A DNA stretch of 64,000 nucleotides, from positions 5,347,001 through 5,411,000 of the forward strand of contig NZ_CP025791.1 in NCBI RefSeq assembly GCF_002886045.1. The letters run 5' to 3'. The notes beneath the pieces are model-generated. The model had not been told where the DNA came from, searched no databases, and worked only from the letters and a program-made list of their open reading frames with translations. Both the position numbers and the translations under genes were made by a program. Positions within the stretch are counted from its first letter, which is position 1; each line of letters opens with the position of its first letter. This DNA is from Flavivirga eckloniae (lineage in GTDB: Bacteria; Bacteroidota; Bacteroidia; Flavobacteriales; Flavobacteriaceae). Below are positions 27,383 through 44,874 of this stretch, piece by piece.

Positions 27383-27510
27383 GAAATTCGTTCTAGAGGG
27401 TAGAAAGTTTTATTATTTAGATTAAAAAGTCTAGTTTTTCGGGAGGAGGTGAATTGTGTAATTATTTTATTTATCATATGGGCTTCCCTAAAAATTAAAT
27501 AATATTCTTC

Positions 27511-27518
27511 TATCTTTG
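27511..27518 (+). promoter_or_regulatory. Bacteroidota -7 box for the Fic gene
   Basis: TATCTTTG matches TAnnTTTG, 27 bp before the ATG at 27546. No good -33 TTG was found at the usual distance, so this is a partial match. Confidence 0.45.
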
Positions 27519-27545
27519 TGATACTATCAAATGATACTATTATAA

Positions 27546-28505
27546 ATGAAGCCACCTTATCAGATTACCGATAACACTTTAAAATTAGTTGTAGCCATTT
27601 CAGAACGACTCGGTGAAATTAGTGCAACTCATTTATACAAACCACCGACCGAATTACGAAAAAAGAACCGTATTAAAACCATACAATCCTCTTTAGAGAT
27701 AGAGGGTAATACGCTAACAAAAGAACAGATTACGGCACTTTTAGAAAATAAGCGAGTAATTGCACCACAAAAAGATATTTTAGAGGTTCAAAACGCTATA
27801 AAAGTGTATGAGCAGTTACGAACGTTTAATCCAAATAAATTAAAAGATTTAGAAAAAGCTCACAAAATTTTAATGAATGGCTTGATTGATGGTGCAGGAA
27901 AGCTACGAACTATAAATGTTGGTATTGTTAAAGGCTCAAAAGTAGAACATCTTGCCCCAAGTGGAGATATGGTTAAAGGTCTCATGAATGATTTGTTTAA
28001 CTATCTTAAAACAGATAACGATGTTTTGCTTATCAAAAGTTGTGTATTTCATTATGAGTTTGAATTTATACACCCCTTTTTAGATGGTAATGGTCGTATG
28101 GGTAGATTATGGCAAACTCTAATTTTAATGCAACAATATCCAGTATTTGAATTTCTACCAGTAGAAAGTCTTATTAAAGAAAATCAGGAGGAATATTATA
28201 AGGTATTGAGTATGTCTGATAAATCGGGGCATTCTACGCCATTTATTGAGTTTATGTTAAATATTATACTTCAAGCCTTAGAAAACCTATTGAAAATGCA
28301 GAATAGAACGCTTACAACACAAGATAGGATTGAACTATATAAAGATATCATTAAAGAAAATCAATTTAGCCGCAAGGACTATTTGCAAAACTTTAAAGAT
28401 ATAAGCCAAGCTACTGCAAGCAGGGATTTAAAATGGGCTGTAGAACAACAAACGTTGTCTAAAACCGGAGATAAAAGATTAACTAAATATCAATTTAAAT
28501 TTTAA
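27546..28505 (+). CDS. Fic-domain protein, class II (AMP/NMP transferase-type)
   Basis: A 319-residue protein. The Fic motif HPFLDGNGRMGR (His176, Arg184, Arg187) is intact, so it should be active. An inhibitory helix motif, SSLEIEGN (about residues 48-55, Glu53), lies N-terminal to the core, which defines class II Fic proteins that hold themselves inactive. A C-terminal winged-helix-like domain (about 255-319, RKDYLQNFKDISQATASRDL) may bind DNA. Fic enzymes transfer AMP or other nucleotides to target proteins; the target here is unknown. The gene stands alone, with no antitoxin partner. It sits in 1.5 kb bracketed by direct repeats, which points to mobility. Confidence 0.95.
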   Translation: MKPPYQITDNTLKLVVAISERLGEISATHLYKPPTELRKKNRIKTIQSSLEIEGNTLTKEQITALLENKRVIAPQKDILEVQNAIKVYEQLRTFNPNKLKDLEKAHKILMNGLIDGAGKLRTINVGIVKGSKVEHLAPSGDMVKGLMNDLFNYLKTDNDVLLIKSCVFHYEFEFIHPFLDGNGRMGRLWQTLILMQQYPVFEFLPVESLIKENQEEYYKVLSMSDKSGHSTPFIEFMLNIILQALENLLKMQNRTLTTQDRIELYKDIIKENQFSRKDYLQNFKDISQATASRDLKWAVEQQTLSKTGDKRLTKYQFKF

Positions 28506-28538
28506 GGAAGTATAAGGTCATTGCTAGGGAATGTTATT

Positions 28539-28699
28539 CCCGCTCTGCAAAGTCCCCGACTTTGAGGTCACTATAATTCCAAAAATATTCACATAAAGTT
28601 TTCATTTTTAATACTGATTATATTTTGTAATCCTCTTTCAAATTTTATACGCTTTGTTTATTAATGTTCCGCTAAGTGATGAGACTTTGTGGAGCGGTG
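28539..28699. repeat. Direct repeat flanking the Fic gene, right copy
   Basis: Second copy of 27222-27382 in the same orientation, starting 33 bp after the Fic stop. It ends GAGACTTTGTGGAGCGG. The rest of the gap to 28936 holds only the promoter-like boxes at 28868-28897. The terminal GACTTTGCGGAGCGG sequence recurs at 62091-62126 and 62906-62931. Confidence 0.88.
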
Positions 28700-28867
28700 T
28701 CTTTATTTTGTAAATGTAGCTGCGTGTTTCTGTATGCTAGTGAGTATCCGAGAGTGTATTAAAGATGAGATTTGTTTTCTTTACTGTGGATTTAATTTCT
28801 ATAAGATGAAAATATATTAAAACTCCAATATAACTAAACAATTTTTTAGACCTTTAGTCGATGTAAC

Positions 28868-28897
28868 TTGCTTACGGTTTAGTTTCTGCTATTTTTG
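28868..28897 (+). promoter_or_regulatory. Promoter for the histidine-kinase operon
   Basis: TTG at 28868-28870 and TATTTTTG at 28890-28897 are 19 bp apart, fitting the Bacteroidota TTG-N19-TAnnTTTG pattern. They lie 39 bp before the kinase ATG. Confidence 0.5.
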
Positions 28898-28936
28898 TAT
28901 ATTTTGTATCTAAAATTCAAATCATAAAAACTATAT

Positions 28937-30958
28937 ATGATTATAAAACAATCTTTTTTTCTAATTATTCTTTTTTTAGGATTATCTATAAATGCTCAAA
29001 GAAATGATTTTGAAAAGAATATTACTGAATTAGAACTAAAAATTAAACAATCTGTAAACGCTGAACATCTTAAATGGTTGGATAGTTTAACCACTTTAGT
29101 AGAATTTGATGAAGCGCTTAAATATGATTCTATAGCAAGAAAAACCATTACATATGCTTTAAAGTTAGATTCCCTAAACATTGCAATAACAAATACAAGT
29201 AAACTTATTCATTACCATAGTAATATAATGGGAGATTCTGAAGAAGGGTTGCGAATATTTAAAGATTTTTTGAGTACTATAGAAGCGGTAACATCTAATG
29301 CTATTAAAGGAAGGTTTTATCTCTATGGCGCAGATTCATATGCTGGTCAGGTTGATTTTGATATGGCTTTTAAATATTATGATCTAGCTAAAGATTGCGC
29401 ATTGAAAGCAAGTAATCAGTCGTTATTGGGGACTATAGCTTTAAAAACTGGAGGTGTTTTAATGGAAATGGGAGAAGCAGTTGATGCCTCAAAACACATT
29501 CAGGAAGCTATTAGAATTTTTGCTATAGAGAAGGATACATTAAACTTAATAAATGCTAAAAATGACATTTCAATTTTATACAGTCAAAATGCATTTTATA
29601 AAGAAGCAGAAAAAGAGCGTAATGAAGCCATAGCTTTATCGAATACGTTTAAACAAGAAACTGCAGTATCATTACTTTATTATAACGCAGCGGCAGATTA
29701 TAGATTAATTGACGATCAAAAAAAACGTATATCAAACTTACGATTAGCACTAAGGCATAATAATTCTGAATTCAGACGTTTTTACGAACCTTTCTTTTTG
29801 TGTGATTTAACGATAGCTTTGGCAGAAAATGATAGTATAGAAAAAGCAGAACAATATTTCGATAAAATTAAGAGTGATCCAGATACATACTCCGAAGGTA
29901 TTCAAAAAGAGATGTATATCGAAGTTCTAAAACAAATGGCTTTAGGGAAAAATCAGTTTAAAGAAGCTATTGATTATGGAAAACAGCATTTAGCATTAAA
30001 AAGGGTGCACAAAGGGTATGTAGAAATAATGAATGCTGAAAAGTTTTTGTCTGATATTTACAAAAAGACTAATGATAATAGAAACTCAGAAAAACACTTA
30101 ATTAATTACTATAAAATAAAAGACTCCATATCTAAAGTTCAAAATGTAAAGTCATTAACTTATTATCAAACGTTGTATGAAACTGAAAAGCGTGATTTAA
30201 AAATAAAAGCTCAAGAAAGTGATATTGCCTTATTAGATGAAAAGAATAAAGTAAAAAATCAATGGCTATTATTTGGAGGTTTAGGACTTTTAGCAGTATT
30301 TGGCATTGTCTTGTTATGGCGATCTAGAAATGCAGCAAGAAAACGCGAACAATTGCAAGAACAATTTTCTCAAGACCTTTTAACTGCACAAGAAGAAGAA
30401 CGAACTAGGGTATCTAAAGATTTACATGATAGTGTTGGGCAGCAATTGACATTAATTAAAAAGAAGGCTCAGAATTTGAAGCAAGAAGAATTATCTACCA
30501 TGACAAATAATGCTTTAGAGGAGGTAAGAAGTATATCGAGAGGGTTATTTCCAGCTGCATTAAAGCAATTAGGTTTAACAGAAAGTATTCAACAATTATT
30601 AAATGATTTAGATGAAGAAACCGATATGTTTTTTTCTGTAGAGATTGATGATATTGATAACGAGTTTAATGAAACAGAAACACTTAATTTGTATAGATTT
30701 ATTCAAGAAACGGTAACAAATGCTTTAAAACATGCTAAGGCTAAAACACTAACCGTAAACATTATAAAACATAATAATACTGTAGAAGTTTTAATAAAAG
30801 ACAACGGAGTTGGTTTTGATAATGTGGCGTCTGTAAAGCAACATAGTCTAGGTTTAAAAACTATAGCAGAACGCATACGTATGTTAAAAGGCACCCTGTC
30901 AATAAAAAGTAAAAAAGAAAAAGGAACGCAGGTTCTAGCTCAAATACCAATAGTATAA
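28937..30958 (+). CDS. TPR sensor histidine kinase (HisKA_3/NarX type)
   Basis: A 673-residue protein with a signal peptide ending near LSINAQ, periplasmic TPR-like repeats at about 30-410, one transmembrane helix at about 443-461 (WLLFGGLGLLAVFGIVLLW), a dimerization helix with phosphoacceptor His497 in KDLHDSVGQQL, and a C-terminal ATPase domain (N-box ETVTNALKHA, GLKTIAERIRMLKG, ending KGTQVLAQIPIV). The ATP and His boxes are intact. The response regulator starts 2 bp after the stop, so they form one two-component pair. The sensed signal is unknown; TPRs suggest a protein or peptide ligand at the envelope. Confidence 0.95.
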   Translation: MIIKQSFFLIILFLGLSINAQRNDFEKNITELELKIKQSVNAEHLKWLDSLTTLVEFDEALKYDSIARKTITYALKLDSLNIAITNTSKLIHYHSNIMGDSEEGLRIFKDFLSTIEAVTSNAIKGRFYLYGADSYAGQVDFDMAFKYYDLAKDCALKASNQSLLGTIALKTGGVLMEMGEAVDASKHIQEAIRIFAIEKDTLNLINAKNDISILYSQNAFYKEAEKERNEAIALSNTFKQETAVSLLYYNAAADYRLIDDQKKRISNLRLALRHNNSEFRRFYEPFFLCDLTIALAENDSIEKAEQYFDKIKSDPDTYSEGIQKEMYIEVLKQMALGKNQFKEAIDYGKQHLALKRVHKGYVEIMNAEKFLSDIYKKTNDNRNSEKHLINYYKIKDSISKVQNVKSLTYYQTLYETEKRDLKIKAQESDIALLDEKNKVKNQWLLFGGLGLLAVFGIVLLWRSRNAARKREQLQEQFSQDLLTAQEEERTRVSKDLHDSVGQQLTLIKKKAQNLKQEELSTMTNNALEEVRSISRGLFPAALKQLGLTESIQQLLNDLDEETDMFFSVEIDDIDNEFNETETLNLYRFIQETVTNALKHAKAKTLTVNIIKHNNTVEVLIKDNGVGFDNVASVKQHSLGLKTIAERIRMLKGTLSIKSKKEKGTQVLAQIPIV

Positions 30959-30960
30959 TT

Positions 30961-31599
30961 ATGGAAATTTCTGTTTTAGTCGCCGATGACCACCCGATGT
31001 TACTCAGAGGTTTAGTAGATGAACTTAAATCGTTTAATTATAATATCATTTCTTCAGTAGAAAATGGTGCAAAAGCTTTAGATGACATTATTTCATTACA
31101 ACCAGATATTGCCATTTTGGATATAGAAATGCCTTTGTTATCAGGTTTTGAAGTTATTCAAAAATGTTTGGATAAGCAACAAACAACAAAATTTATCATC
31201 CTGACATCACATAAACAAAAAGGCTTTATTTCAAAAGCGCAAAAACTTAATATCCAAGGGTACATTTTAAAAGATGAACCATCAATCGAACTCCATAAAT
31301 GCATTCAGGAAGTTTTTAAAGGAGGCACATACTTTAGCTCAGAATTCAATAAAATACTTGAGAATCAGATTTCACCAGAAATTGAAAAAATTAAATTTTT
31401 AAGCCCATCAGAACGTACTATTGTCCGATTGGTGGCACAGGGGAAATCTTCTAAAGAAATTGGAGAGTTATTAAGCATATCCAGTAGGACTGTAGAAAAG
31501 CACCGCTCCAATATCATTCGTAAATTAGACCTTTCAAACGAAATGGATGCCCTTAGTTCTTGGGCTCAGGAACATAAAGAGCTTATACTTTCCATATAA
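30961..31599 (+). CDS. NarL/FixJ-family response regulator
   Basis: A 212-residue protein. The receiver domain (1-125) has the acidic pair DD at 9-10, phosphoacceptor Asp54 in AILDIEMP, and Lys in YILKDEPS. The C-terminal LuxR-type helix-turn-helix (about 147-200) reads LSPSERTIVRLVAQGKSSKE followed by IGELLSISSRTVEKHRSNII. It is the partner of the kinase directly upstream. A run of TACGTA palindromes begins 28 bp after its stop and precedes the collar-protein gene, which makes that gene cluster the likely target. Confidence 0.96.
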   Translation: MEISVLVADDHPMLLRGLVDELKSFNYNIISSVENGAKALDDIISLQPDIAILDIEMPLLSGFEVIQKCLDKQQTTKFIILTSHKQKGFISKAQKLNIQGYILKDEPSIELHKCIQEVFKGGTYFSSEFNKILENQISPEIEKIKFLSPSERTIVRLVAQGKSSKEIGELLSISSRTVEKHRSNIIRKLDLSNEMDALSSWAQEHKELILSI

Positions 31600-31626
31600 A
31601 TTCGGTAAGCAATTTTCATGTCAAAC

Positions 31627-31666
31627 GCTACGTAGGGTTACGTAGTATTTGCAAGTGATACGTATT
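31627..31666. promoter_or_regulatory. Ten-bp-phased TACGTA array (candidate response-regulator operator)
   Basis: TACGTA occurs at 31629, 31639 and 31659, with the intervening 10-bp unit being ATTTGCAAGT. Read as 10-mers: GCTACGTAGG, GTTACGTAGT, ATTTGCAAGT, GATACGTATT. A spacing of exactly one and two helical turns on one face of DNA is typical of a bound activator dimer array. It lies about 90 bp before the collar-protein ATG and directly after the NarL-type regulator. Confidence 0.65.
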
Positions 31667-31756
31667 GTTATAGAATACCCCTAGTTATACCTTGCACTAG
31701 CATTGGATGTATATCCTTTCCTCAAAAAAGAGTATAACGAATTAACAATAATAACC

Positions 31757-32671
31757 ATGAAAACAAAATTTACACTTTTAACGCTATTAATGCTTTTTAC
31801 AGCAACTTTTAATTATGCACAAACCTCTGCAGAAATAGCAGATATAGCTGTACAAGGTATAGCAAGAGATGGCAATAATACAGCTAAAACAAATGCTACT
31901 ATTTCTTTAACGTTTGAGTTGTATTATTTAGATGCCAATAACGGTAATACTAAAGTAGTTATTGGTAATCCAGAAACTGTTAATTTGACGACAGATGCCT
32001 TTGGCGTGTTTTCACATATTATAAGTCCAGCGGCAACTAATAATCCCATATTTGCAAACCAACAGGTGTATTTAAAAATAAGTGAAGGGCAACAGGTCAT
32101 TTCAGAAGAAAAGTTAAAACACGTGCCTTATGCTATAGCCGCCAATAACGGGGTGCCAACTGGGGCTATTATGCCTTTTGTAGGAACAACAGCTCCAACA
32201 GGTTGGGTGTTATGCGATGGGAGGTCTTTAGTAGGAATCAATGGCTCACAAAAACTTATTGACTTGTTGGGCAGTAACATTGCCCCAAATTTACAGGCCA
32301 TGTATTTGCGAGGTGCCGGTTCTCAAGCTTATGAAGGTACCAATTATGCTGGCATCGCTTTAGGAGTTAAACAAAAGGATGGCTTTCAATCTCATGATCA
32401 TACAGCGGGAAGCTTAGAAGCGGCCAATGCGGGGCAGCATACACATGATTTAAGACAACCTTTTCGTTTCTTTGAACCTAGAAATGGGGGTAGTTCTGGA
32501 GCCACAAATGCTTTTCAAAACCAATCTGCTGCTGGAACAGGAACAGTTAATGATGGTGCCCTAGCAGCTGGCATTCATTCTCATCAAATCACAGGACTAA
32601 CCGGGGCTACAGGTACACTAGGTGAAACACGTCCTGTAAGTTACGGTGTTAACTACATCATTAAACTATAA
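31757..32671 (+). CDS. Secreted phage-tail-collar domain protein
   Basis: About 304 residues. ATG at 31757 is chosen over an upstream in-frame start at 31703 because it gives a clean signal peptide (MKTKFTLLTLLMLFTATFNYAQ). The N-terminal ~110 residues form a beta domain (ISLTFELYYLDANNG, VYLKISEGQQVISEEKLKHV). A tail-collar domain starts at about residue 136 (GAIMPFVGTTAPTGWVLCDG, then LRGAGSQ). The C-terminus is rich in His/Gly (SHDHTAGSLEAANAGQHTHD) and ends in ETRPVSYGVNYIIKL, as in tail-fibre tips and microcystin-dependent-type proteins. It is a bacterial surface protein here rather than a phage one, since no other phage genes surround it. Confidence 0.9.
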   Translation: MKTKFTLLTLLMLFTATFNYAQTSAEIADIAVQGIARDGNNTAKTNATISLTFELYYLDANNGNTKVVIGNPETVNLTTDAFGVFSHIISPAATNNPIFANQQVYLKISEGQQVISEEKLKHVPYAIAANNGVPTGAIMPFVGTTAPTGWVLCDGRSLVGINGSQKLIDLLGSNIAPNLQAMYLRGAGSQAYEGTNYAGIALGVKQKDGFQSHDHTAGSLEAANAGQHTHDLRQPFRFFEPRNGGSSGATNAFQNQSAAGTGTVNDGALAAGIHSHQITGLTGATGTLGETRPVSYGVNYIIKL

Positions 32672-32682
32672 ACTATAGGGTG

Positions 32683-35600
32683 ATGAGAAAAAAAATACTA
32701 ACTCTGTGTTTAGGGCTACTGGTTACAGGACTCTGGGCGCAACAAGATGATGGTGCCAAAATGGTTACCACATCGCAGGCCGTACAAAACAATGGTTATA
32801 CCATTCAAGTTGGTGTACCTTATTTAGGAACCAGCAATGTTGCCAATAACACCGATGCCCGTTTTCCATGGGACATATTATACATTTTTGGAACATTTGC
32901 AGAGGAATCTTTTGATGTATCTAAAGGTTATTTCGGCGATAAAGTACTGCTGCAATGGGAGCTAAGAAATAACTTCAATTTAATTACAACCATAGAAATA
33001 TCACGTAGAGAACTAGGGAGTAGCTCACAATTTCAGTTTGTAGGCAGCGTATCACCTAACGAAACCCAATACGAAGATAAATATGTGGATGGTGGTGTAC
33101 TGTATGAATATAAAGTATTGGCAAAAGGTGTAAGCCAAACCGAAGAATTATATACTAACTTCATCACAGGTGTAGGGTTTAGAAACCCAACAGCCATAGT
33201 AACAGGAAATGTAAGTTATAAAGGCGGCAACCCGGTGCAAAATGTAACTATTACAGCAGAGTCTGATGGGAGCGTTGTAAGTTATGGCAGTGGTTTAATT
33301 GTACCAGAATCTAACCAACTAAGTATAGCTAACTTAAATAAGCCTATAGATAAGACTACAACTTTACAAGCATGGGTGCGACCCGATGTGCCTTATGTAG
33401 ATGATAGTGGAAATGCTATAAGATTGTTTAGACTCAACGAGAAAAACGGAAATAATATTGATGTTACCGTTAATTTAAAAGAAACCTCTAAAACTTTAGA
33501 AGTTAGTATTGGAGGTAACCTTTATATCATTCAAAACGTTTACCCATCTGGAGATATAGATGCTCGAGGGAATGATATCATGATACCAGTATCAGATTTT
33601 AACAGCAATTTTGTACATATTACTGCCCAGTTAGAAGATAATAAAGAGCCTTTATTGTTTATAAATGGGCGCCCTATGACTGCGGCTTATAGGGATGCAG
33701 CACATGCTGCCAGAGCTGAAGTAGATGATGAAGATACCTCGCCGTATTTAGAAATAACGGTTCTAACAGTAACAACAATGTTTAATGTAGGAAGCGGTAT
33801 TTGGGAAAATGTATTTATAGGAGGAGGAAAAACGGCGTTAATTGATGAAATACGTGTTTGGAAGAGTATAGAAGCCGCTTCAGATATTCGTACCGATTAT
33901 AAGCGATACATCAGTGGAAACGACCCGGATTTGGTGGCCTATTTAAGTGCTAACGAGAATACAGGAGGCTATGCTTATGATGCCTCACGAAACGGATTCA
34001 ATTATAACAAAAATCACGGTAGTTTAAACATCCAGGGTATAAGTAACGATATCTCTTTTGTGTCTGGCGCAGGCAATATTCCATCGTCCAGCCAATTAGG
34101 TATTTTGGGAGTTACCGATGTTAACGGTAATTATGAAATCAATGCGATTCCTTATACAGGAACAGGCGAATCATTTAAAATTACACCTAGTTTTGGACAA
34201 CATAAATTTGAGCCTAATCAGCAATTGGTGTTTTTAGGTGAAGGCTCCGAAGTGGTCAATAAAATAGATTTTACAGATACCTCATCCTTTATTTTTAAAG
34301 GCAAAATATTATATGATACCAGAGGTGTATTCCCATCAGTTGCAGAAGCAGAACAAAATATAGGTAACGGTAATACCATAGCTGGAGGTGCAGCTATTAT
34401 TGATGAGAATTACAATCAATACGAAATAAATGGAGCTTTTTATAACAAAGGCGAGTATTGGTTAAACGATTTAGGGACTACTGGAAATAATGAAAAAGAT
34501 GATGATCGCTTGGATTTATATGCGCGTATTCCGGTAGCAGGAGCCAACATTTATATAGATGGCAACATTGTTTTAGATGAAAATAACGTCCCTATAGAAT
34601 CGGATAGCGAAGGTAATTTTGATATTAGTGTGCCTATCGGTAATCACTTTATTCGTGTTGCTAAAACCGGACATGAATTTACTTATGAAGGTAGGTTTCC
34701 GGCAGAAACTGGCACCTTCCAAGAGTTCTTTGAAGATGCCCAGGAACAAGTGGTGTTTATTGATGAAACACGTGTAATCGCTGTAGGTCGCGTGGTTGGT
34801 GGCTCTGTAGAAGCTCAAAAACCTATAGGGTTTGGAGAAAACGGATTGTTTGAGGTGCCTTATTTGGCTCCAGGTGGAGATACAACTTTAAGGGTAAGTT
34901 CTAAAAACAATATTGGAACAGCTACTATAACTTTGGAATTACCAGGAAGTGTATCGGATGTTACAAAGTTTGAGTTTCAAACCAATGAAGAATCAGGAGA
35001 ATACCGTATTCAGGTAATGCCACTTAACTATGAAATTGTTGGTGGTAGTGGTTTACAAATTTCTAATGCCACTATTGGTACAAGCATAATAGCAGCAGGG
35101 ACTAAGGAGACTGTTAATTTTGCAAGTATACCTCCATTATTAACTCCCGAATTTAAATATCCCGATGATGAAATTCTTGAAGGTGTACCGTATCATTTTG
35201 AGAAAAGTTTTATTTACAGATCAACACCAGTGTTACGAGTTACAGACCAAACCTCAGAAAGTGAACTTGTTTTAAAAGATGTGAATGGTGTTGACCAAAC
35301 CATAAGCACTACAGGATTTAAACATCCAAACGGATCAGGAGATGATGTGCTCATTTATAAACAGTTTTCAAATTATGAAATTGTTTTAAGTACGTTTGAA
35401 CGTTATGAAAATAAAGATAATCTTAATGATATTATTGAAGATATTGTACCCATAGTAGATGGTCAACTCAGTATAACTAACAATTTGGCGATACCGGAAT
35501 CAGAGCTTACAGAGACCGACCCTAATGACAATAGTATTACCAAGTACTCATTTATTGGAGGTGTTCCTAATACCAATACACCTTTTACACGTAATATTAA

Positions 35601-38600
35601 CATTCAATATGTTATAGAGGGGATACCTTACGATGCCGAAAATTATATTAGCGAAGGGATCATTTTAGGAGGAGCGAGAGATGGAACACAATCCATCCTT
35701 TCAGAAGCACCAGAGATTCCAGATATTATTTTAAGAGATCCGCCAGGGTCAAATAGTTTCGCATCTATAGAAGCTGGAGAAAGTATTAGTTTTACCACAG
35801 ACAATAGTTTTTCAAGTGGAGGAGGCATTTCTCAAAGTGTGAAATTAATGTTGGGAGGTGATGTATCCATTGTTGCAGGGCCTCCGGGAGCGGGACTTAT
35901 TGTAAATACCGAAGTTACCAATAGTTTAACAGGAAATATTTCAGTAGAAGCCTCTTCTAAAGATGGCAATAGTATTACCAAAACCTATACATTCAATCAA
36001 ACCATATCAACCAGTGATGACCCGGAATTTGTAGGAGCTGAAGGTGATTTATATATAGGAAATTCTAAAAATTATTCTAAAGGTAGTTTTGATGATTTTC
36101 AAGCAACTTTAGATCAGGTAGGTGATCCTGGTGATAATTTTGAATTAACCAATGGCAATGGTGATAAAGTGTATTTAAATAAACAAAAAGCCTTTTATCT
36201 TGGAGAAAAGCCAACAAATACCTTCTTTGTGTATTCTCAAAAATTCATTATTACCGATTTAATTCCGGAATACGAAGCTATTGTAGAAACTTTATCAACA
36301 GGAGGTACGGTTGAAAATGCAAAACCTCAATCTTGGTATGAAAATCAAATTGATTTATGGCGCAGAATCATATTAAATAATGAACGTAGTAAATATACAG
36401 CGCTAAATGATCCTACTTTTATTGGATTAACGGCTCTAAATGCTATTAATGCATATACTGGAGACCTCCAGGACGAAATAAATAATGCACAAGTAGGTGG
36501 GCCTTATGAAAGCTTATTGCAAGAGAAATTAAAACTAGCGGATTCACAAAAAGCTTTAATCTCATCAAAATCGCAGGATAATATCACGTTCGATTCCGGT
36601 GTTGGTGAAGTGTCCAGAAGCATAGAATCTGTCGTTGTTAATACATCAACTTTAGAGTTTGATATTAACATAGAAGAAAGTTTACAATTACAGTTAGGCT
36701 TTAGTGTCAATAAATTGGGAATAGAATCTACAACAACAGGATTTGCAAGTCAGGCATTTAGTGCGTCCTTAACAGAAGAAGATACAAAGACCACTACTAT
36801 TAACTACACGCTTAAGGATAATGACCCAGCTAATGTATTAAGTGTAGATATTATCAATTTGTTTGATGGTAGCGGTCCTATATTTACAACTGTAGGAGGT
36901 AGAACATCTTGTCCTTATGAAGGTGCTGAATTATCACATTATTATAACCATGCAACTTATAACCCTAACAACCCAGTTATAGAGTTGGCTCAGGGAGATA
37001 GAGAAACATTAAGTAACGCAACAGAAAGGGCAGAAGACCCTAAAATTCTTGTTGAGGTTGCTGAAATTTTTAATATCCCGGAAAGTAACAACGCAGAATT
37101 TAAATTACTACTCTCAAATAATGCAGATGCTACAAGCGATGCCGCTAGCTTTAATTATTTTGAACTTATTGTAGATAATACCACCAATCCTAACAATGCA
37201 CTAATAAATGTAAGCCAGAATGGAACTGTAGTTTTTGTGCCATATGGTCAAACGGTTGAATATACGTTAACATTAGGGAAATCAGTATCCGATGTTAATG
37301 ATTACGAAGATATTCGCGTTATTTTACAATCGCAATGCGATCCAGTGAATGTTTTTGATGATGTATTGATTTCTGCGCATTTTGTACCATCCTGTTCTCG
37401 AGTAGCCGTTAAAGCACCATTAGATAATTGGGTGTATAATACTAGCAGTTCAACAAGTCCGCTAACGATTAACTTATCAGAATACAATCAAGCCTTTGAT
37501 AATTTTGAAAAGATAGATTTAGAATACCGTTTAGCAACAGCTCCAAATTGGACACGATTGCAAACGTTTTATAACGGAACCATACCAGCAGGTGCCACTT
37601 TGGCTTCTTCAATAACAGACGCAGAAGTTGTTTACGCTTTCGATATTGTAGAATCGGGACTGCAAGATGGTAATTACGAAATAAGAGCGCGAAGCACATG
37701 TACCAATGGTACAGAGTTTATTTCAGAAGTTATTTCAGGTAGTGTAGACTTAAAATCACCACAGCAGTTTGGAACCCCATTGCCAACCGACGGCATATTG
37801 GGTCCGGGAGAAGATTTGCGTGTGAGTTTTAATGAAAACATCTTTTATAACAGTGCCTTGAGTACCATTGAGATAAAAGGAGAAACCAATCAATTGCCAA
37901 TAGATAATAGTGTGTCCTTACGTTTTGAAGGTGCTAATAACACGGCAACAATAGAAAGTCCGAGATTAGTATCAGGAGACCTGTCAGTAGAATTTTGGAT
38001 GAACAATGCCACAATTGCATCAACAGCTGCTATTATCAATCAGCAAAACGGATTAAACATTCGTTTAGAAAACGGAGATATGTATGTGTCTCTTGGAGAT
38101 ATAATAGCCAATGGTACTATAGCAACAGATGGCTTGTTTCACCATTATACCATTACACACGACAATGCTTCAGGAAGCCTTAGTATTTATGAAGACGATA
38201 GAGATATTGGCGGTAGTACAGGGACTGCAAACACACAATTTACTAATAATAATCCATTAGTTATTGGAGGCAACACATTTATAGGGAATATGCATAGTTT
38301 ACGACTATGGACTAAATCCCTAAGTTTAAGTAAAGCCTATGCTAATATCTATACGAAGTTATTAGGAAACGAAGCAAATTTAGTTGGCTATTGGCCCATG
38401 AATGAAGGACGTGGGACTATTGCAAATGATTTAGCACGATTTAAACATGCAGCAGTTACAGCAGATTGGGACATTAAACCCAAAGGTACCTCTTATGAGT
38501 TCGCCAATGGACAGTATCAGGAGTTAGATAATGTTGGTTTTGTACAATTAACCAATGAGATGGATGCCACGATATCCTTCTGGATAAAAACAGGAACGGC

Positions 38601-41208
38601 CCAAGAAGCCACCATATTCTCTAACGGACGTGGAAATGGAGAAGATCCAATACAATCTGTTGGACTATCGAACAAATGGGCTATAAATATGAATAGTACT
38701 GGAGCCTTATCTTTTGCAAGTGAAGGTAATAGCTATGTGTTAACAGCAGCAAGTGTGGCCGATAATAATTGGCATCATATAACCTTATTATTCAACAGAA
38801 ATGGCTCTTTAAGAACCTATGTAGATGCACAACAAGTATCATCTAATCCTATTACAGATATAGGAGGTTTTTCAGGAAACCAAGCCTGGTTAGGAGCTAG
38901 AGGGTTTAAAGACCAAGGAGGTAATGAAACTGTAGACAGGGCATTTACTGGTAAAATTGATGAGTTTAGGTTATGGAATACCTTGCGTAATGTAGACCAA
39001 ATATCTAGAGACCGTTTTAACGAAATGGATGTGGAAAGCATTGGACTATTATTATACGCTCGTATGAATGCACCTGATCCTGCAACAGCTAATGGGCCAC
39101 GATATTATCATGCCTTTAGCAATCAAAGTGTCATACCAACAAATGCCGTATTAAGTGCAGGAGCTGTGAATTATTCAGATGATGTACCAGCCATTAAACC
39201 AGAGCGTAAGCTTATCAAATTCCAGGTGAATCATGTCATTAACGAAGATGATATGATTATTGAGCCTGCTATTTCCGACTGGGCAGCACTGGAAGGTCAA
39301 ATTCTTGATATTACTGTACACAGAATGTTTGACGCATCAAATAACCAACAACAATCACCAATTACCTGGACCGCGTTTGTTCAGAAAAATGAAATGAGCT
39401 GGTTTGTTGATGGCTTTAATAATGTGGTTGATATTGTTAAAACAGGAAATGAATCACCTTCGTTTGAAATTACTATTATCAATAAAGGTGGTTTAGTACA
39501 GCCTTATAATATTGCAGGAGTTCCTAATTGGTTGTCTTTAAGCAGTACATCAGGAAGTTTAGCTCCAGATAGTAAGGTAGTCATTACTGCCACTATTGAT
39601 GAAGGCCTCTCTGCTGGAGAGTATCTGGAAAATCTGTATTTGCAAACCGATTTTGGTTTAGATGAAAAACTACAATTAGAAGTTAGAGTATTAGCAGAAG
39701 AGCCAGACTGGGCGATAAACCCTAATGACTTTGATTTTAGTATGAATATTGTAGGACGTATTAGCGTCGATGGTGTATTCTCAGATGATTTATACGATAA
39801 AGTGGCTGCGTTTTCTAATGGAGAGCTTAGAGGTGTTGCGAATGTGGTTTATGATGAGTCGTATCAGGAATATTTTGTATTCCTAACGGTTTATAGCAAT
39901 GCGGTATCTGGAGACCCAATTAATTTTAGTATTTGGGATGCCTCAATGGGGCAGATTGTTCAGGCAACTATTGATGCTAATGCATCAGTAACCTTTACAG
40001 AAAATAATGTGCTAGGCACACTAAGTAGTCCATCGCTTTTTGAAAACACGAGCACTGTTGAACAGGAAATAAATTTAAATCAAGGCTGGACCTGGGTGTC
40101 GTTTAATGTTAATGATGCGAATTTCTCAGATTTAAATGCCTTAACATCAGGTATGAACTTAGAAACTTCAGACCGTATGTTGAGCCATTCACCAACTCAG
40201 TTAGAAACCTATTTTAAGGATGTAAACAATGCGGCAAATAGTTCATGGAGTGGAGCTATTAGTGCGAACTCGGGATTATCAAACAACTTTATGTACAAAA
40301 TGAAGTTTGCTCATGGCCAGCAATTAAGAGTTAAAGGAGGTCAAGTGGATATCGGTAGTTGGAGTTTCCCTATACAACAAAATTGGAACTGGCTACCCTA
40401 TCCTTTAAGTAAGAACGTATCAGTAAACGAAGCCTTATCCACTTTTGATGCCACAGATGGCGACATTATAAAATCACAAAACCTATTTGCCATTTACGAC
40501 CCCTTAAACGGATGGAGTGGAACTTTAAGCTATCTGGAAACTGGTAAGGGATATATGGTGAAATCTAGTAAAGATCAAACCTTTAAGTATGCTAATATTT
40601 TTGGAAAATCTTCAAGCACGAAGATTTCAAAAAATACTAACACGGCATTTGTGCACAAACGTACTGAACCAGAATTTGCAAAATATTCAGAGAATATGAA
40701 CGCTGTGGTTTTACTGCCTGAGGGATATCATGAACTCTTTATTTATGATGAAGATGGTGTGCTAAAAGGTGAGGCAACTAACCAAATAGTAAGCGATAGA
40801 GCACTAAGTTTTATTACCATATATGGTGAACAACCAAAATCGTTAACCTTTCACATAGGTAACGGTAATATTCAAAGACCAACACAAAAAACAGTAACCT
40901 TTAAAAGTAATGTAGTGTTAGGTACGGTGGCAGACCCAGTAGTGTTGGAATCTGATATTTTAGAAAGTCTTAAAATGTATCCAAACCCGTTTAAAAATGA
41001 ATTGATGTTACAGCTTAATTCTAACGAAGTAAGTAATATGGAGCTCAAACTATTCAATGTGGTAGGACAACTTGTTCATTCAGAAACACACAAAACAAAA
41101 AAAGGGCTAAATACAATTAAGCTGACTCCAAGAATTAGTAACGGCGTATACTTTTTAAAAGTGAATCTCAACAATGTAAATACAACCTATAGAATCATTA
41201 AAAACTAG
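32683..41208 (+). CDS. Giant LamG-domain surface protein with T9SS sorting signal
   Basis: A 2841-residue protein with a signal peptide (MRKKILTLCLGLLVTGLWAQ). It has a fibronectin-like region near 85-170, a LamG/concanavalin-type domain at about 200-430, two more at about 1735-1910 and 1935-2130, each ending in a DEIRVW or DEFRLW type motif, then a BACON-like beta domain near 2255-2340. A domain at about 2340-2446 is shared with the next gene. Tryptophan-rich repeats follow (INLNQGWTWVSFNV, IQQNWNWLPYPLS). A type A T9SS sorting domain (about 2765-2842) has MYPNPFKNELMLQL and GVYFLKVNLNN. It should be exported and attached to or released from the surface, probably as an adhesin or ligand-binding stalk. 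No enzyme motif was recognised. Confidence 0.93.
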   Translation: MRKKILTLCLGLLVTGLWAQQDDGAKMVTTSQAVQNNGYTIQVGVPYLGTSNVANNTDARFPWDILYIFGTFAEESFDVSKGYFGDKVLLQWELRNNFNLITTIEISRRELGSSSQFQFVGSVSPNETQYEDKYVDGGVLYEYKVLAKGVSQTEELYTNFITGVGFRNPTAIVTGNVSYKGGNPVQNVTITAESDGSVVSYGSGLIVPESNQLSIANLNKPIDKTTTLQAWVRPDVPYVDDSGNAIRLFRLNEKNGNNIDVTVNLKETSKTLEVSIGGNLYIIQNVYPSGDIDARGNDIMIPVSDFNSNFVHITAQLEDNKEPLLFINGRPMTAAYRDAAHAARAEVDDEDTSPYLEITVLTVTTMFNVGSGIWENVFIGGGKTALIDEIRVWKSIEAASDIRTDYKRYISGNDPDLVAYLSANENTGGYAYDASRNGFNYNKNHGSLNIQGISNDISFVSGAGNIPSSSQLGILGVTDVNGNYEINAIPYTGTGESFKITPSFGQHKFEPNQQLVFLGEGSEVVNKIDFTDTSSFIFKGKILYDTRGVFPSVAEAEQNIGNGNTIAGGAAIIDENYNQYEINGAFYNKGEYWLNDLGTTGNNEKDDDRLDLYARIPVAGANIYIDGNIVLDENNVPIESDSEGNFDISVPIGNHFIRVAKTGHEFTYEGRFPAETGTFQEFFEDAQEQVVFIDETRVIAVGRVVGGSVEAQKPIGFGENGLFEVPYLAPGGDTTLRVSSKNNIGTATITLELPGSVSDVTKFEFQTNEESGEYRIQVMPLNYEIVGGSGLQISNATIGTSIIAAGTKETVNFASIPPLLTPEFKYPDDEILEGVPYHFEKSFIYRSTPVLRVTDQTSESELVLKDVNGVDQTISTTGFKHPNGSGDDVLIYKQFSNYEIVLSTFERYENKDNLNDIIEDIVPIVDGQLSITNNLAIPESELTETDPNDNSITKYSFIGGVPNTNTPFTRNINIQYVIEGIPYDAENYISEGIILGGARDGTQSILSEAPEIPDIILRDPPGSNSFASIEAGESISFTTDNSFSSGGGISQSVKLMLGGDVSIVAGPPGAGLIVNTEVTNSLTGNISVEASSKDGNSITKTYTFNQTISTSDDPEFVGAEGDLYIGNSKNYSKGSFDDFQATLDQVGDPGDNFELTNGNGDKVYLNKQKAFYLGEKPTNTFFVYSQKFIITDLIPEYEAIVETLSTGGTVENAKPQSWYENQIDLWRRIILNNERSKYTALNDPTFIGLTALNAINAYTGDLQDEINNAQVGGPYESLLQEKLKLADSQKALISSKSQDNITFDSGVGEVSRSIESVVVNTSTLEFDINIEESLQLQLGFSVNKLGIESTTTGFASQAFSASLTEEDTKTTTINYTLKDNDPANVLSVDIINLFDGSGPIFTTVGGRTSCPYEGAELSHYYNHATYNPNNPVIELAQGDRETLSNATERAEDPKILVEVAEIFNIPESNNAEFKLLLSNNADATSDAASFNYFELIVDNTTNPNNALINVSQNGTVVFVPYGQTVEYTLTLGKSVSDVNDYEDIRVILQSQCDPVNVFDDVLISAHFVPSCSRVAVKAPLDNWVYNTSSSTSPLTINLSEYNQAFDNFEKIDLEYRLATAPNWTRLQTFYNGTIPAGATLASSITDAEVVYAFDIVESGLQDGNYEIRARSTCTNGTEFISEVISGSVDLKSPQQFGTPLPTDGILGPGEDLRVSFNENIFYNSALSTIEIKGETNQLPIDNSVSLRFEGANNTATIESPRLVSGDLSVEFWMNNATIASTAAIINQQNGLNIRLENGDMYVSLGDIIANGTIATDGLFHHYTITHDNASGSLSIYEDDRDIGGSTGTANTQFTNNNPLVIGGNTFIGNMHSLRLWTKSLSLSKAYANIYTKLLGNEANLVGYWPMNEGRGTIANDLARFKHAAVTADWDIKPKGTSYEFANGQYQELDNVGFVQLTNEMDATISFWIKTGTAQEATIFSNGRGNGEDPIQSVGLSNKWAINMNSTGALSFASEGNSYVLTAASVADNNWHHITLLFNRNGSLRTYVDAQQVSSNPITDIGGFSGNQAWLGARGFKDQGGNETVDRAFTGKIDEFRLWNTLRNVDQISRDRFNEMDVESIGLLLYARMNAPDPATANGPRYYHAFSNQSVIPTNAVLSAGAVNYSDDVPAIKPERKLIKFQVNHVINEDDMIIEPAISDWAALEGQILDITVHRMFDASNNQQQSPITWTAFVQKNEMSWFVDGFNNVVDIVKTGNESPSFEITIINKGGLVQPYNIAGVPNWLSLSSTSGSLAPDSKVVITATIDEGLSAGEYLENLYLQTDFGLDEKLQLEVRVLAEEPDWAINPNDFDFSMNIVGRISVDGVFSDDLYDKVAAFSNGELRGVANVVYDESYQEYFVFLTVYSNAVSGDPINFSIWDASMGQIVQATIDANASVTFTENNVLGTLSSPSLFENTSTVEQEINLNQGWTWVSFNVNDANFSDLNALTSGMNLETSDRMLSHSPTQLETYFKDVNNAANSSWSGAISANSGLSNNFMYKMKFAHGQQLRVKGGQVDIGSWSFPIQQNWNWLPYPLSKNVSVNEALSTFDATDGDIIKSQNLFAIYDPLNGWSGTLSYLETGKGYMVKSSKDQTFKYANIFGKSSSTKISKNTNTAFVHKRTEPEFAKYSENMNAVVLLPEGYHELFIYDEDGVLKGEATNQIVSDRALSFITIYGEQPKSLTFHIGNGNIQRPTQKTVTFKSNVVLGTVADPVVLESDILESLKMYPNPFKNELMLQLNSNEVSNMELKLFNVVGQLVHSETHKTKKGLNTIKLTPRISNGVYFLKVNLNNVNTTYRIIKN

Positions 41209-41213
41209 AAGCT

Positions 41214-42134
41214 ATGAAACGTATAATAACAAACATAATAGTATTCTTTTTTATAGGAATAACCGTTTATGGTCAAGAGCCAACATGGTCTGTAAACGAA
41301 AATGATTTTGAATATACCATGTCATTTGTGGCCTTTTTAAATGTAGATGGAGCAACATTAACCAGTACTAATGATAAAGTGGCGGCATTTGTAGGTGGTG
41401 AATGCAGAGGTGTTACTAACTTAATTTATGTATCAGGTAAAGATCGCTATTATGCTTACTTTAATGTGTTTTCAAACACCAATGGAGAAGCGTTGAATTT
41501 TAAAGTTTACGACTCCACCAACGATAATGTTGTGGATATAGTTAAAACAGTAAATTTTGAAATTAATGCTCTTTATGGCGATTTAGCACAAGCCTTTAGT
41601 TTTGCGAGCCCCGCTTTAAATGATAAAGCAGAACTCATTAGTTTTAATTTTAAAGATGTCACTATTAGTAATAGGAACATACAAGATAATGCCATGACAC
41701 TTTATGTAGATAATGGTATAAACGTATCAGCCTTAACTTCCATTTTTGAATTAAGCACAGGTGCGCAACTGTTTAGTGAAAGTCAAAAATTAATCTCAGA
41801 TAGCAACGTATTAGATTTTACCAATTCTGTCATAGTTGAAGTGCTTTCAGAAGATGAATCTACACGCAACGAATGGGAAATAACCGTAAGTTATAATGCC
41901 GTAATAGGGAATTTAACCTTTTATAAAAAAGATGCCGTGTGTTATAGTGGGGGTGCTATTAAGGTATTGTCTTCCGAAAATGGTAGCGAAGTGGTATTAC
42001 TTAAAAATCAGGTGGTACAAGCTGCTCAAACCTTAAATAACGGCGAAGTTATTTTTACCAGTTTAGGTGCAGGAGATTATACCATTCAAGTTAATGGATT
42101 TGAAAAACAGATAAGTATTAATTTAAAAGAATAA
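41214..42134 (+). CDS. Secreted companion protein sharing a domain with the giant protein
   Basis: A 306-residue protein starting 5 bp after the giant gene, with a signal peptide ending near TVYGQ. Residues about 22-135 (EPTWSVNENDFEYTMSFVAF, DKVAAFVGGECRGVTNLIYV) match residues about 2340-2446 of the giant (EPDWAINPNDFDFSM, DKVAAFSNGELRGVANVVYD). A further beta domain (about 140-235) and a C-terminal domain with CYSGGAIKVLSSENG follow. No T9SS sorting signal is obvious. The shared module suggests the two proteins bind the same partner or assemble together. Function unknown. Confidence 0.82.
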   Translation: MKRIITNIIVFFFIGITVYGQEPTWSVNENDFEYTMSFVAFLNVDGATLTSTNDKVAAFVGGECRGVTNLIYVSGKDRYYAYFNVFSNTNGEALNFKVYDSTNDNVVDIVKTVNFEINALYGDLAQAFSFASPALNDKAELISFNFKDVTISNRNIQDNAMTLYVDNGINVSALTSIFELSTGAQLFSESQKLISDSNVLDFTNSVIVEVLSEDESTRNEWEITVSYNAVIGNLTFYKKDAVCYSGGAIKVLSSENGSEVVLLKNQVVQAAQTLNNGEVIFTSLGAGDYTIQVNGFEKQISINLKE

Positions 42135-42138
42135 AGTA

Positions 42139-42552
42139 ATGCGAACAAAATATTATTACATAACCATAATAATCCTATGTTTTGTTTTAGGATGCTCAAA
42201 AAATGATGATGATCCGGTACCACCACCAGCCACTGTAGAAAGTTTTGATCCCGTGTCTATTGAATTTGTTCATGAAGACGGTACTGGTATTACAGCAAAT
42301 GATTGTATTACACCAGATGAGGCCTATGCTATTCAAATAACAACAACTAAAAATAGTAGTGGAACAACAAAAGTCTCTAAAATAGAATATACCATTAATG
42401 GTGCATTGTATAGCATGTCATTTTCAGAAGCAGGAACAAAAAGAAACCCTATTGTGTTGGTTTATGGAAGAAATGTAGCAGAATTATCCTCAACAGGTAC
42501 TTCTAATGAAGTAAACTATATAGAACAAGGGGAGTTTGAACTAGTTAATTAA
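42139..42552 (+). CDS. Small lipoprotein, last gene of the collar/LamG operon
   Basis: A 137-residue lipoprotein (lipobox FVLGC, Cys19) followed by a short acidic/proline linker (SKNDDDPVPPP) and a beta-rich domain with one further Cys. It starts 4 bp after the companion gene, so it is co-transcribed. No family was recognised. A small outer-membrane lipoprotein could anchor or help export the secreted partners. The stretch after it, to 42953, holds no gene that I can see. Confidence 0.75.
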   Translation: MRTKYYYITIIILCFVLGCSKNDDDPVPPPATVESFDPVSIEFVHEDGTGITANDCITPDEAYAIQITTTKNSSGTTKVSKIEYTINGALYSMSFSEAGTKRNPIVLVYGRNVAELSSTGTSNEVNYIEQGEFELVN

Positions 42553-42953
42553 TTGATAATTAGAAGTGATTCATACTATGCTTTTAATAAATGAAACCCA
42601 AGTTTTTTTGATATTAAGCTTCATTTATTTAATGGTGAATATTACGACCATATTCAAGACTGTTTTGTGTTTAGTAAATATAAGAAGTGTTTGTTTGTAA
42701 TGTTTTAACAATAAACATTGTGGCGCTAATAGTAATTGAACTATTCGTTTTGAATCAATTATTATTATGAAACATTTTGATTTATTTTGATGTTCAATGT
42801 ATCAAATTCGTACCGGAAATAGACTAGGTCTTGTGAATATTGTTTAGTTACTTTATGTATCGGGAAATAGCTAGTTGTTTTATTTCCAATAACTGTAAAT
42901 CAAAATAGTTGTTAATAGTTTCAAACAGATTATTACTCTAAAATATTAGAAAC

Positions 42954-42993
42954 AAAAAAGCCTTAACCTTTTATTTAAAGGTTAAGGCTTTTT
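42954..42993. terminator. Strong bidirectional terminator
   Basis: AAAAGCCTTAACCTTT, a short TATTT loop and AAAGGTTAAGGCTTTT form a perfect 16-bp stem with A and T tracts on both sides. It can end the plus-strand collar/LamG operon and the minus-strand GH16 remnant. Confidence 0.9.
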
Positions 42994-43045
42994 AAGTTAT
43001 TTGGGGCCTTTTTACTTATAATTTACTAAATATTTTAAGGGATAA

Positions 43046-43462
43046 TTATATATTCTGTCTTTTTAAATGTATTATTTTCATTTTGGTTTCAAAACGGCCA
43101 GAAGCAAATCTTCTATCTGTAAGCATAGCTGCTCCCATACGAGTATTATGTTCTCCATTAAAACTTGTTAAAGGACCATTATAGTAATCTTCTAAAGATC
43201 TCATAACTGCATTTCCATTTTCGGTATAGCAATTTTCTTGTATGACGCCTCCGTGTAAGTACAAATTACCGTTATATGTTGGCTGACCCCATATTCTATG
43301 TTCTACTTTCCAGGTATTTTCATGTAAAGGAGCTTCAAACTTATCATAAAATATACTAGGAGCCGATAAGTCTCCAATATCTGGATCTCCATCTATTTGT
43401 GCATTTACAGAAAAGACAAGTAAAAGCATTAAAAAAGAAAAACAGTGTTTGTTTTTTAACAT
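43046..43462 (-). pseudogene. Truncated GH16-like glycanase (N-terminal fragment)
   Basis: 138 residues with a signal peptide (LLLVFSVNAQ). The rest resembles the start of secreted GH16 agarase/carrageenase/laminarinase-type enzymes: FYDKFEAPLHENTWKVEHRI, QENCYTENGNAVMRS and FASGRFETKMKI. It stops right there with IIHLKRQNI, before the part that would hold the catalytic ExDxxE motif, and nothing matching continues towards the terminator. A full enzyme needs about 150 or more further residues, so this is a broken gene. Family assignment is from motif style. Confidence 0.65.
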
Positions 43463-43748
43463 AACAAAAAATTTAATTTTACCAAGATTGGCAATTAGTT
43501 AATTATTAATTGAATCTTAAAAATATGTGTTAATTTGATCTAAAGTTTACCTAATATTAAATATTTGTTGATGTATAATCTTACATGTTGGTTATTGTGG
43601 TCATAACCAGTATTATAGGCTATAAAAACTATATACCAATCATCGATTAATGACAGTTTTAATACATTTATTTATACTATTAGAAATAGTATGATTGTTT
43701 AAATATAAATTAGACCATTGAATTTGGGTTTTAATAAACATTTGAAAA

Positions 43749-44342
43749 ATGAATTATATAGAAGAAAAGTATATTGAATTATATAGCGATTATATAAATT
43801 CGTTTAGCCCTGTTTCTCAAGAATCTTTAGAACAATTACTTTCTTTAATGAAGATACGAGATGTGGACAAGGGCGAAACACTTGTTTTTAAAGGGCAAGT
43901 TGCTCGTAATATTTTATTTGTTTGCGAAGGGATATTAATTTCTCAATGGATGGATGATAAAGCCAATGTATACGTGAAGAACTTCTTTTTAAAAGGTTTT
44001 TATGCTGGTTCTACTGTATCAATGTTAAAATCTTTACCGTCACATTTTGGAGTTGAGTGTATAGAAGCTGGTAAAATTATAGAAATGGATTACCATAAAT
44101 ACAAAGAAGTAATATTCAAAAACGAAGACCTAAAGAGTTATTATATTAAACACATTGAGCAGAATTGGATTGTTGAAAATGAAAAAAGACAAATCTCGTT
44201 TGCTGCTCAAGATGCTAAAGAACGCTATTTTACTTTTTTAGATGAATACCCTGACCTCCCAGACAGAGTTCCACAATGGCAGATTGCTTCTTATCTAGGG
44301 ATAACCCCTACGCAACTAAGTAGAATAAGAAGAGATCTATAA
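43749..44342 (+). CDS. Crp/Fnr-family transcriptional regulator
   Basis: A 197-residue protein. The N-terminal cyclic-nucleotide-binding fold (about 15-125) has VDKGETLVFKGQVARNILFV. The C-terminal helix-turn-helix has VPQWQIASYLGITPTQLSRI. It lacks the arginine-bearing phosphate cassette of true cAMP binders and has no Cys cluster for an iron-sulphur centre, so the effector is unknown. It sits 79 bp before a DUF606 transporter gene in the same direction; in Bacteroidota, Crp-like genes often regulate an adjacent small transporter. Confidence 0.93.
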   Translation: MNYIEEKYIELYSDYINSFSPVSQESLEQLLSLMKIRDVDKGETLVFKGQVARNILFVCEGILISQWMDDKANVYVKNFFLKGFYAGSTVSMLKSLPSHFGVECIEAGKIIEMDYHKYKEVIFKNEDLKSYYIKHIEQNWIVENEKRQISFAAQDAKERYFTFLDEYPDLPDRVPQWQIASYLGITPTQLSRIRRDL

Positions 44343-44871: not shown

Positions 44872-44874
44872 AGA

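Follow-up and report, generated by a model that had tools for sequence, protein, structure and literature searches.

A six-gene locus of Flavivirga eckloniae predicted to encode a regulated, type IX-exported surface scaffold with an exchangeable phage-fibre-type tip

Within a stretch of 64,000 nucleotides from the genome of Flavivirga eckloniae (contig NZ_CP025791.1, positions 5,347,001 to 5,411,000, hereafter the window), six consecutive genes encode a sensor histidine kinase, a response regulator, a secreted protein with a phage Tail Collar domain, a giant protein with a sorting domain of the type IX secretion system (T9SS), a companion that has one domain in common with the giant, and a small lipoprotein. 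With moderate confidence, and judging by sequence, we read this locus as encoding a regulated scaffold that the T9SS exports to the cell surface and that bears a receptor-binding tip of the phage type. In the mechanism that we propose, the kinase would switch the response regulator, which in turn would bind phased TACGTA sites and activate the genes for the collar protein, the giant, the companion and the lipoprotein. The giant would leave the cell via the type IX system and become a scaffold on its surface, and the collar protein, exported through Sec and probably trimeric, would form a tip of the phage-fibre type, docked on the scaffold by its conserved N-terminal domain and recognising the target by a C-terminal fibre end that is exchangeable. 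The companion and the lipoprotein may tie or mature the complex at the outer membrane. A reading made earlier from the letters of this DNA alone (the original prediction) had suggested a 'fibre or adhesin apparatus', which such a complex may represent. The features of the locus are the following.

28937-30958 (+): sensor histidine kinase, 673 residues; Pfam HisKA_3 and HATPase_c, and a TPR match below cut-off in the sensor half
30961-31599 (+): NarL/LuxR-type response regulator, 212 residues; Pfam Response_reg and GerE
31629-31664: TACGTA repeated three times in phase (31629, 31639, 31659), candidate sites for binding of the regulator
31757-32671 (+): secreted collar protein, 304 residues, from an ATG; Pfam Collar, PF07484
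32683-41208 (+): giant, predicted T9SS substrate, 2841 residues, from an ATG; Laminin_G_3 and Por_Secre_tail
35686-36939 (+): DPPG module of the giant (residues 1002-1419), modelled as two long beta-hairpins around a helical part
36940-38001 (+): immunoglobulin (Ig)-like part of the conserved core of the giant (about residues 1420-1773)
38509-39006 (+): best LamG-type (Laminin_G_3) domain of the giant, residues 1943-2108
39682-40167 (+): domain common to giant and companion, giant residues 2334-2495
40975-41199 (+): T9SS type A sorting domain of the giant, residues 2765-2839
41214-42134 (+): companion, 306 residues; signal-peptide-like start and one shared domain (residues 23-130)
42139-42552 (+): small lipoprotein, 137 residues; lipobox-like LGC followed by SKNDDD (by eye)
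42955-42993: palindromic terminator-like site with 17 pairs, scoring on both strands

All six open reading frames (ORFs) are intact in the ORF list of the window, all on the forward strand, and lie where the original prediction had located them. The collar frame as called mechanically begins with a TTG at 31703, and the ATG at 31757 inside it is probably the start of the gene. The last four genes are separated by 11, 5 and 4 bp, in line with the 4-11 bp that had been announced. The regulator does precede the collar gene, yet to call it 'directly' upstream was loose, as 157 bp lie between the two, a gap into which a promoter would fit. Note that a promoter scan of the window stayed at chance level (79 found, 75.7 expected). 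The enzyme described as a TPR histidine kinase is a kinase by its HisKA_3 and HATPase_c domains, but the TPR match falls under the Pfam cut-off. Signal-peptide-like N-terminal stretches are seen by eye in the collar protein, the giant and the companion, and the domain said to be common to the latter two was recovered by aligning giant residues 2334-2495 with the companion (35% identity, E 8e-18). The terminator noted after the locus corresponds to a terminator-like site: the 17-pair palindrome lies about 400 bp beyond the lipoprotein stop, is by far the longest stem of the 10 found in the window (8.6 expected), and may serve the convergent gene at 43046-43462 too.

In the giant, Pfam recognises Laminin_G_3 in two stretches and a C-terminal Por_Secre_tail, and the C-terminus exceeds the cut-offs of both PF18962 (43.6 bits against 27) and TIGR04183 (43.6 against 23). 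By this sorting domain the giant is a T9SS type A substrate, its export being a prediction. No family was listed in Pfam or NCBIfam scans for a core of 770 residues in its middle, and it is this core that we used to follow the giants through other genomes.

The order of collar gene, giant and companion is conserved in the family of the window. Among 13 family giants that were read, 11 have a collar gene immediately upstream (the window, G347, G791, G811, G815, one of the two in G855, G867, G875, G900, G902 and G918; G numbers designate genomes, L numbers loci), and 12 have a companion immediately downstream, the exception being the second giant of G855. The lipoprotein is present at nine of the 13 loci and missing from G867, G902, G002 and the second G855 locus; its relatives thus hold the same position in eight further family loci. 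One further family locus, partly composed of N, was excluded from all counts. The same order, tail fiber protein, LamG-like giant and T9SS type A protein, is given in the NCBI annotation of Flammeovirga kamogawensis, and the co-occurrence of collar, giant and companion that the original prediction proposed to search for is supported. Searched by profile, 395 genomes of the order yielded the core in 7, 12 genomes of the genus in 2, and 101 genomes from the genus to which G347 belongs in 6, counts that include the genome of the window or G347 itself. A single-sequence search of 120 family genomes added G002, whose relative has about 3,380 residues.

As evidenced by its domain layout, the collar protein is a composite of an N-terminal 'VQGxxRD' domain (about residues 30-128), a Tail Collar domain (136-173) and a C-terminal fibre end. 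The Collar match (PF07484, residues 136-173, E 7e-7) scores 29.5 bits against a gathering score of 24, the best match in the Protein Data Bank (PDB) is a 'Short tail fiber' (9cuy, E 2e-8), a PHROG tail collar fiber family is matched at E 2e-18, and the identity to phage tail fibres is 29-35%. A profile search of the PDB with the N-terminal domain gave nothing better than E 0.42. In a Pfam scan of ten tip proteins from the wider sample described below, the fibre ends borne by this domain were found to be exchanged: Collar and Gp10_C both pass their cut-offs in L114, Gp10_C passes and Collar fails in L072, Peptidase_S74 is found in L068, L073 and L078 and below cut-off in L100, and the fibre ends of L075, L081, L082 and L093 are without a Pfam match. 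Judged by these domains, the collar is one of several phage-fibre-type ends carried by a common N-terminal domain. Both Collar and S74 domains occur in the fibres of phages, in proteins that form trimers. Three tandem tip genes precede a single giant in L075, L082, L086, L102, L138 and L152. Exchangeable phage-fibre tips offer a testable idea of what the giants bind and of how their targets switch.

With a profile built here, the T9SS sorting domain was detected in 77 of 102 giants (one duplicate included; many of the others are cut by contig ends), but in none of 64 tip proteins of the wide set and none of 10 in the last family set. That the tips have no sorting domain while the giants do suggests that they may be held or carried by a partner.

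Beyond the family, a single-sequence search detected the core in 12 of 395 genomes of the phylum, including those of the window and G347, and a scan of GTDB genomes for the pattern of the DPPG motif confirmed at least 542 related stretches. The record titles of 78 loci, the best of these and leaning to the kind of the query, name Bacteroidetes and groups, Ignavibacteriae, Chlorobiota, Neomarinimicrobiota, Cloacimonadota, Calditrichota and KSB1, and also a Gemmatimonadetes bin and a Thermoanaerobaculia bin represented by two contigs. The homology of the core thus extends across phyla; as most records are metagenome bins, isolated odd placements may be misbinned. The wide sample comprises 101 giants after removal of one duplicate (L064 is the same record as L121; other duplicates are possible). 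Giants near contig ends were excluded from the respective flank count, and kinase, regulator, tip and companion were labelled by profiles built from the genes of the window, not by curated models. Of 66 giants with 1.5 kb of known upstream sequence, 41 have a collar-type N-terminal domain gene directly upstream, a number that rises to 43 if a distance of 5 kb is allowed. On the downstream side, 37 of 70 giants are followed within four genes by a companion that has the shared domain. In 13 whole genomes that contain giants, 11 of 22 such N-terminal domain genes precede 9 of 20 giants, where 0.02 giants would be expected by density, so that chance adjacency is negligible.

On a quick FastTree phylogeny of the core, tip linkage within 5 kb requires 4 changes among 66 giants, companion linkage 15 among 70 and two-component linkage 14 among 48. 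Going by this tree, the tip is an old partner and the regulator a recurrent one. A correlation that might have spoken for docking was set aside: tip genes stand upstream of none of 7 giants without the shared domain and of 34 of 43 with it, and a count that still included one duplicate row gave a Fisher value of 4e-5, but the contrast is one between clades and confounded by ancestry, with 2 changes and only one or two independent pairs.

The case for dedicated control rests on three of the eleven collar cassettes, those of the window, G855 and G875, in which the kinase/regulator pair lies directly upstream. The spacing of the TACGTA words in the window is identical in G855 (0, 10, 30), where the gap has otherwise diverged by eye, and G875, which belongs to another genus, has two of them with a 10-bp step. 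Phased TACGTA words precede the collar gene in all three cassettes with the pair and in none of the eight without it (p 0.006). The 16-bp pair TACGTANNNNTACGTA occurs twice, twice and once in the genomes of the window (G000), G855 and G875, respectively, and in each genome one copy falls into the regulator-collar gap of 146-182 bp, with a chance of about 5e-5 each if sites were evenly spread. The second copy of G000 lies inside an ORF resembling shikimate dehydrogenase (named by eye), that of G855 between short ORFs. With 0-6 sites elsewhere in 18 other genomes searched the word is not peculiar to this system, and since G000 and G855 are of the same genus the three cases are not fully independent. 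A spacing of 10 bp is compatible with NarL-type dimers bound in tandem on the same helix face. Phased and near-unique sites ahead of the collar gene make it plausible that the regulator is dedicated, and they constitute good, if indirect, evidence for two-component control of the operon, with binding of the regulator as a prediction. With a single operon predicted as the target of the two-component pair, the stimulus and the surface phenotype could be linked in one strain.

Elsewhere the regulators vary. A gene that matches our own LuxR-type helix-turn-helix profile is found divergently upstream in G347, G791 and G811 and downstream in G900, a weak label given that a Pfam scan of the G347 gene returned TPR families and others, all below cut-off, and no helix-turn-helix. 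By eye, an AraC-like gene accompanies the G867 locus, and no regulator was recognised in G815, G902 and G918. Two LuxR-profile genes precede giant and companion in G002, the one that was scanned combining 7TMR-DISM and GerE. The regulator-like gene of G811 is split into two ORFs (L156, 6049-7763, minus strand), while it is a single ORF in G347 and G791. Proteins of 133 and 135 residues that look LytTR-like by eye stand directly before the giants of L063 (G501, 6619-7020) and L062 (5503-5910), two giants without a sorting domain by our own profile.

In the wide sample, 19 of 48 giants have a histidine kinase or response regulator gene in the 5 kb upstream of them, as compared to 1 of 49 for the same distance downstream (Fisher 2e-6). 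If shorter flanks are admitted by a limit of 1.2 kb, the counts become 26 of 69 and 3 of 70. L078 and L083, with a kinase just downstream of the giant, fall outside the 5-kb count. As the sequences are related, independent events are fewer than such p-values imply; that there were many of them is suggested by the 14 changes on the tree. The locus had originally been described as self-contained, with a single sensor of its own, and in that form this is not supported: the pair adjoins only three of eleven cassettes, and its linkage changed repeatedly. Of the association that had been drawn between collar, giant and two-component genes, the first two do stay together and the third occur independently. 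The pair being present in a minority of cassettes and the regulators being varied, we take tip, scaffold and companion to be the unit and the sensor to be swapped.

Several observations weigh against a scaffold with a dedicated tip and switch. No tip gene was detected at G002 or at the second giant of G855, and two giants from other families of the order are also without one, standing alone in G148 and with a companion of 1024 residues in G187. In the wide sample a directly adjoining upstream gene of this kind is missing for 25 of 66 giants, and 5 of the 13 whole genomes have giants but none of these N-terminal domain genes, so that the tip link is not universal. In Aureibacter tunicatorum, giant and T9SS protein adjoin, and no upstream gene is annotated as a tail fibre. 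The regulator pair is absent from eight of the eleven collar cassettes. The rarity of the core in order and genus marks the system as dispensable. Finally, none of the tips has a sorting domain that would account for its exit from the cell. Further giants without a detected tip gene are the following. The second giant of G855 (L159, 5898-14543) is a divergent one in the genus of the window, with no tip domain detected upstream, and its neighbours are a secreted-looking protein of 361 residues with a coiled-coil-like tail, a LuxR-profile gene nearby, and two related lipoprotein-like genes downstream. In L066 (G386) and L069 (G520) the giants measure about 4,900 residues, with the core near residue 3,470 and no adjoining tip gene.

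The foremost alternative to a surface scaffold is a contact-dependent pore-forming device, in which the DPPG module would oligomerise and insert into the membrane of a target or into the own outer membrane while the fibre tip takes aim, making the function aggressive rather than adhesive. We consider this possible, though unlikely. It arises from the core itself. In alignments of 21 and then 58 cores DPPG is invariant, and the CP and the E of TSCPxE are among the nearly invariant positions downstream. Averaged over the 58 sequences, the first module contains two stretches with strong period-2 alternation of hydropathy, reaching 1.4 and 1.0 in windows of 60 columns as compared to at most 0.61 away from them, values attained by 0 and 1 of 20000 permutations. 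In the sequence of the window alone hairpin 2 does alternate (208 of 20000 permutations reach its value), but hairpin 1 shows no significant alternation (5239 of 20000), which counts against the pore, and Ser/Thr-rich alternating strands can arise convergently.

The AlphaFold model of the L077 module has hairpin strands of 30-33 residues, with an overall predicted local distance difference test (pLDDT) of 75 and a predicted template modelling score of 0.61; its residues 31-100 average a pLDDT of 47-68 per block of ten. In the core model of the window the tips of both hairpins (model residues 38-101 and 321-362) remain below a pLDDT of 50. As the fold matches of this 772-residue model were mostly Ig-like and swamped the remainder, the first module was folded by itself. 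In Foldseek the DPPG module then found secretins or secretin-bearing machines at ranks 1-32, proaerolysin at rank 33 (E 0.005, TM 0.07) and Cry23Aa at rank 35, but an unrelated MHC-like protein took rank 34 and no TM-score exceeded 0.18. Z scores in VIA were 6.8 at most, a level that possibly reflects a mere common arrangement, the secretin rows having root-mean-square deviations of 4 to 18; MACPF, which we had weighed for its two-hairpin layout, and proaerolysin were absent among the 50 rows listed. A profile of the module matched 7y79 and 7y78, entitled 'Toxin' (E 0.02 and 0.05), and the hemolytic lectin CEL-III (E 0.17) in the PDB, all weakly and all on hairpin 2. The region matched in CEL-III is its aerolysin-like stem. 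A phmmer search of the PDB with the full giant gave only matches with E 0.04-0.06. Together, these lines point to a core of the oligomeric beta-barrel type, none of the structural or homology lines being convincing singly, and for a pore no sequence match is better than E 0.02.

With somewhat more reserve still, and as a doubtful extension, we can envisage an as yet undescribed class of surface machine common to the Fibrobacterota-Chlorobiota-Bacteroidota (FCB) group, in which a T9SS giant would build a DPPG barrel via its double hairpins, aimed by exchangeable tips and complemented by the companion and a swappable sensor. If true, this would amount to a receptor-guided pore or spike that is anchored on the cell and does not belong to a phage.

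We find it improbable that the giant is instead a glycan- or polymer-capture protein in an ordinary T9SS adhesin locus, with a collar protein that is secreted by a similar route but acts separately. Pfam names little beyond LamG in the giant, and LamG domains often bind glycans or matrix. Half of the 22 copies of the collar N-terminal domain in the 13 whole genomes moreover lie away from giants, so that this domain is not peculiar to the system. Nevertheless, the adjacency to giants is kept almost throughout the family and in distant classes, well beyond chance. A prophage or tailocin remnant that captured a host surface gene is very improbable: Collar, Gp10_C and S74 are phage-tail modules and the collar protein resembles phage tail fibres, but a PHROG scan of 10 window ORFs (25787-45612, the giant and some small ORFs excluded) returned no head, sheath, tube or baseplate family, and the 11 candidate stretches that a narrow pattern picked out in viral contigs all fail to encode the core.

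For the scaffold with a phage-type tip, the two remaining proteins offer few names. The companion matches only an unrelated Pfam family below cut-off, has no NCBIfam name and has no T9SS sorting domain by the profile built here, and the lipoprotein has no match in Pfam or NCBIfam. A profile of the shared domain found nothing better than E 0.24 in the PDB. A charged stretch after the lipobox can mark surface lipoproteins in Bacteroidota. In L073, L075, L077, L081 and L084 the companions are much longer, about 1700-2200 residues, and contain four copies of the shared domain in steps of about 260 and 310 residues, together with a T9SS sorting domain of their own.

Around the locus, a Fic/DOC-family protein (PF02661, E 3e-20) is encoded at 27546-28505 on the forward strand, 431 bp ahead of the kinase gene. 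The ORF at 25787-27112 (forward strand, 441 residues) has a weak match to a PHROG tail-fibre family (E 9e-5) and is matched somewhat better by a PHROG whose function is unknown (E 3e-7). A further signalling gene of the window, at 59408-61831 on the minus strand, encodes a protein of 807 residues that matches the kinase and receiver profiles built here. On plasmid p1 of Flammeovirga kamogawensis (L167, 1-9186), the strand opposite to the locus encodes an LruC-domain protein, a large T9SS protein and a caspase-family protein.

Among known systems, the T9SS type A surface adhesins, SprB-like giants among them, come closest to the giant. They have in common a signal-peptide-like start, a very long multidomain ectodomain and the C-terminal sorting domain (Por_Secre_tail, TIGR04183), and the giant differs by its unnamed core, the linked gene for a phage-type tip and the companion. 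The short tail fibre and baseplate proteins of the gp12-gp10 type (PF07484, PF21939) share the collar domain and C-terminal end with the collar protein, which in turn has an additional N-terminal domain and a signal-peptide-like start, and is encoded together with a cellular T9SS giant. Aerolysin-type pore formers and secretins resemble the core in its long amphipathic hairpins and in weak sequence and fold matches, but no match is convincing and the module is located midway along a giant protein. By sequence, neither giant nor core has a significant match among PDB chains (best E 0.03), so that no homology is seen to any deposited chain.

The grappling hooks of ixotrophic predators also employ a T9SS-secreted protein, which forms a heptameric surface device that catches other cells (Lien et al. 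2024, as described in the review PMC11205867). A tip gene and regulator sites do not appear in the passage of that review on the hooks. Like the giant, the TANFOR polymorphic toxins are described as large secreted proteins of Bacteroidetes in T9SS-linked neighbourhoods (PMC7073777). Membership in this class was rejected, as TIGR02542 is not found in the giant (an NCBIfam scan at E 0.01 gave TIGR04183 only) and as its C-terminus is a T9SS sorting domain, not a toxin; the one weak TIGR02542 match in the genome of the window, below cut-off, is located elsewhere.

A description of the locus was not found in the open literature in PMC, a search that left subscription papers mostly outside. On the evidence of its sequence the locus belongs with the T9SS giant surface proteins, from which it is set apart by the core, the partnership with a tip and an apparently dedicated switch. 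The core has at least 542 related stretches in GTDB genomes and no listed family in the giant of the window, and the recurrence of much of the gene set in very distant relatives suggests an undescribed bacterial surface device, one that would be a new kind of system if the barrel reading holds.

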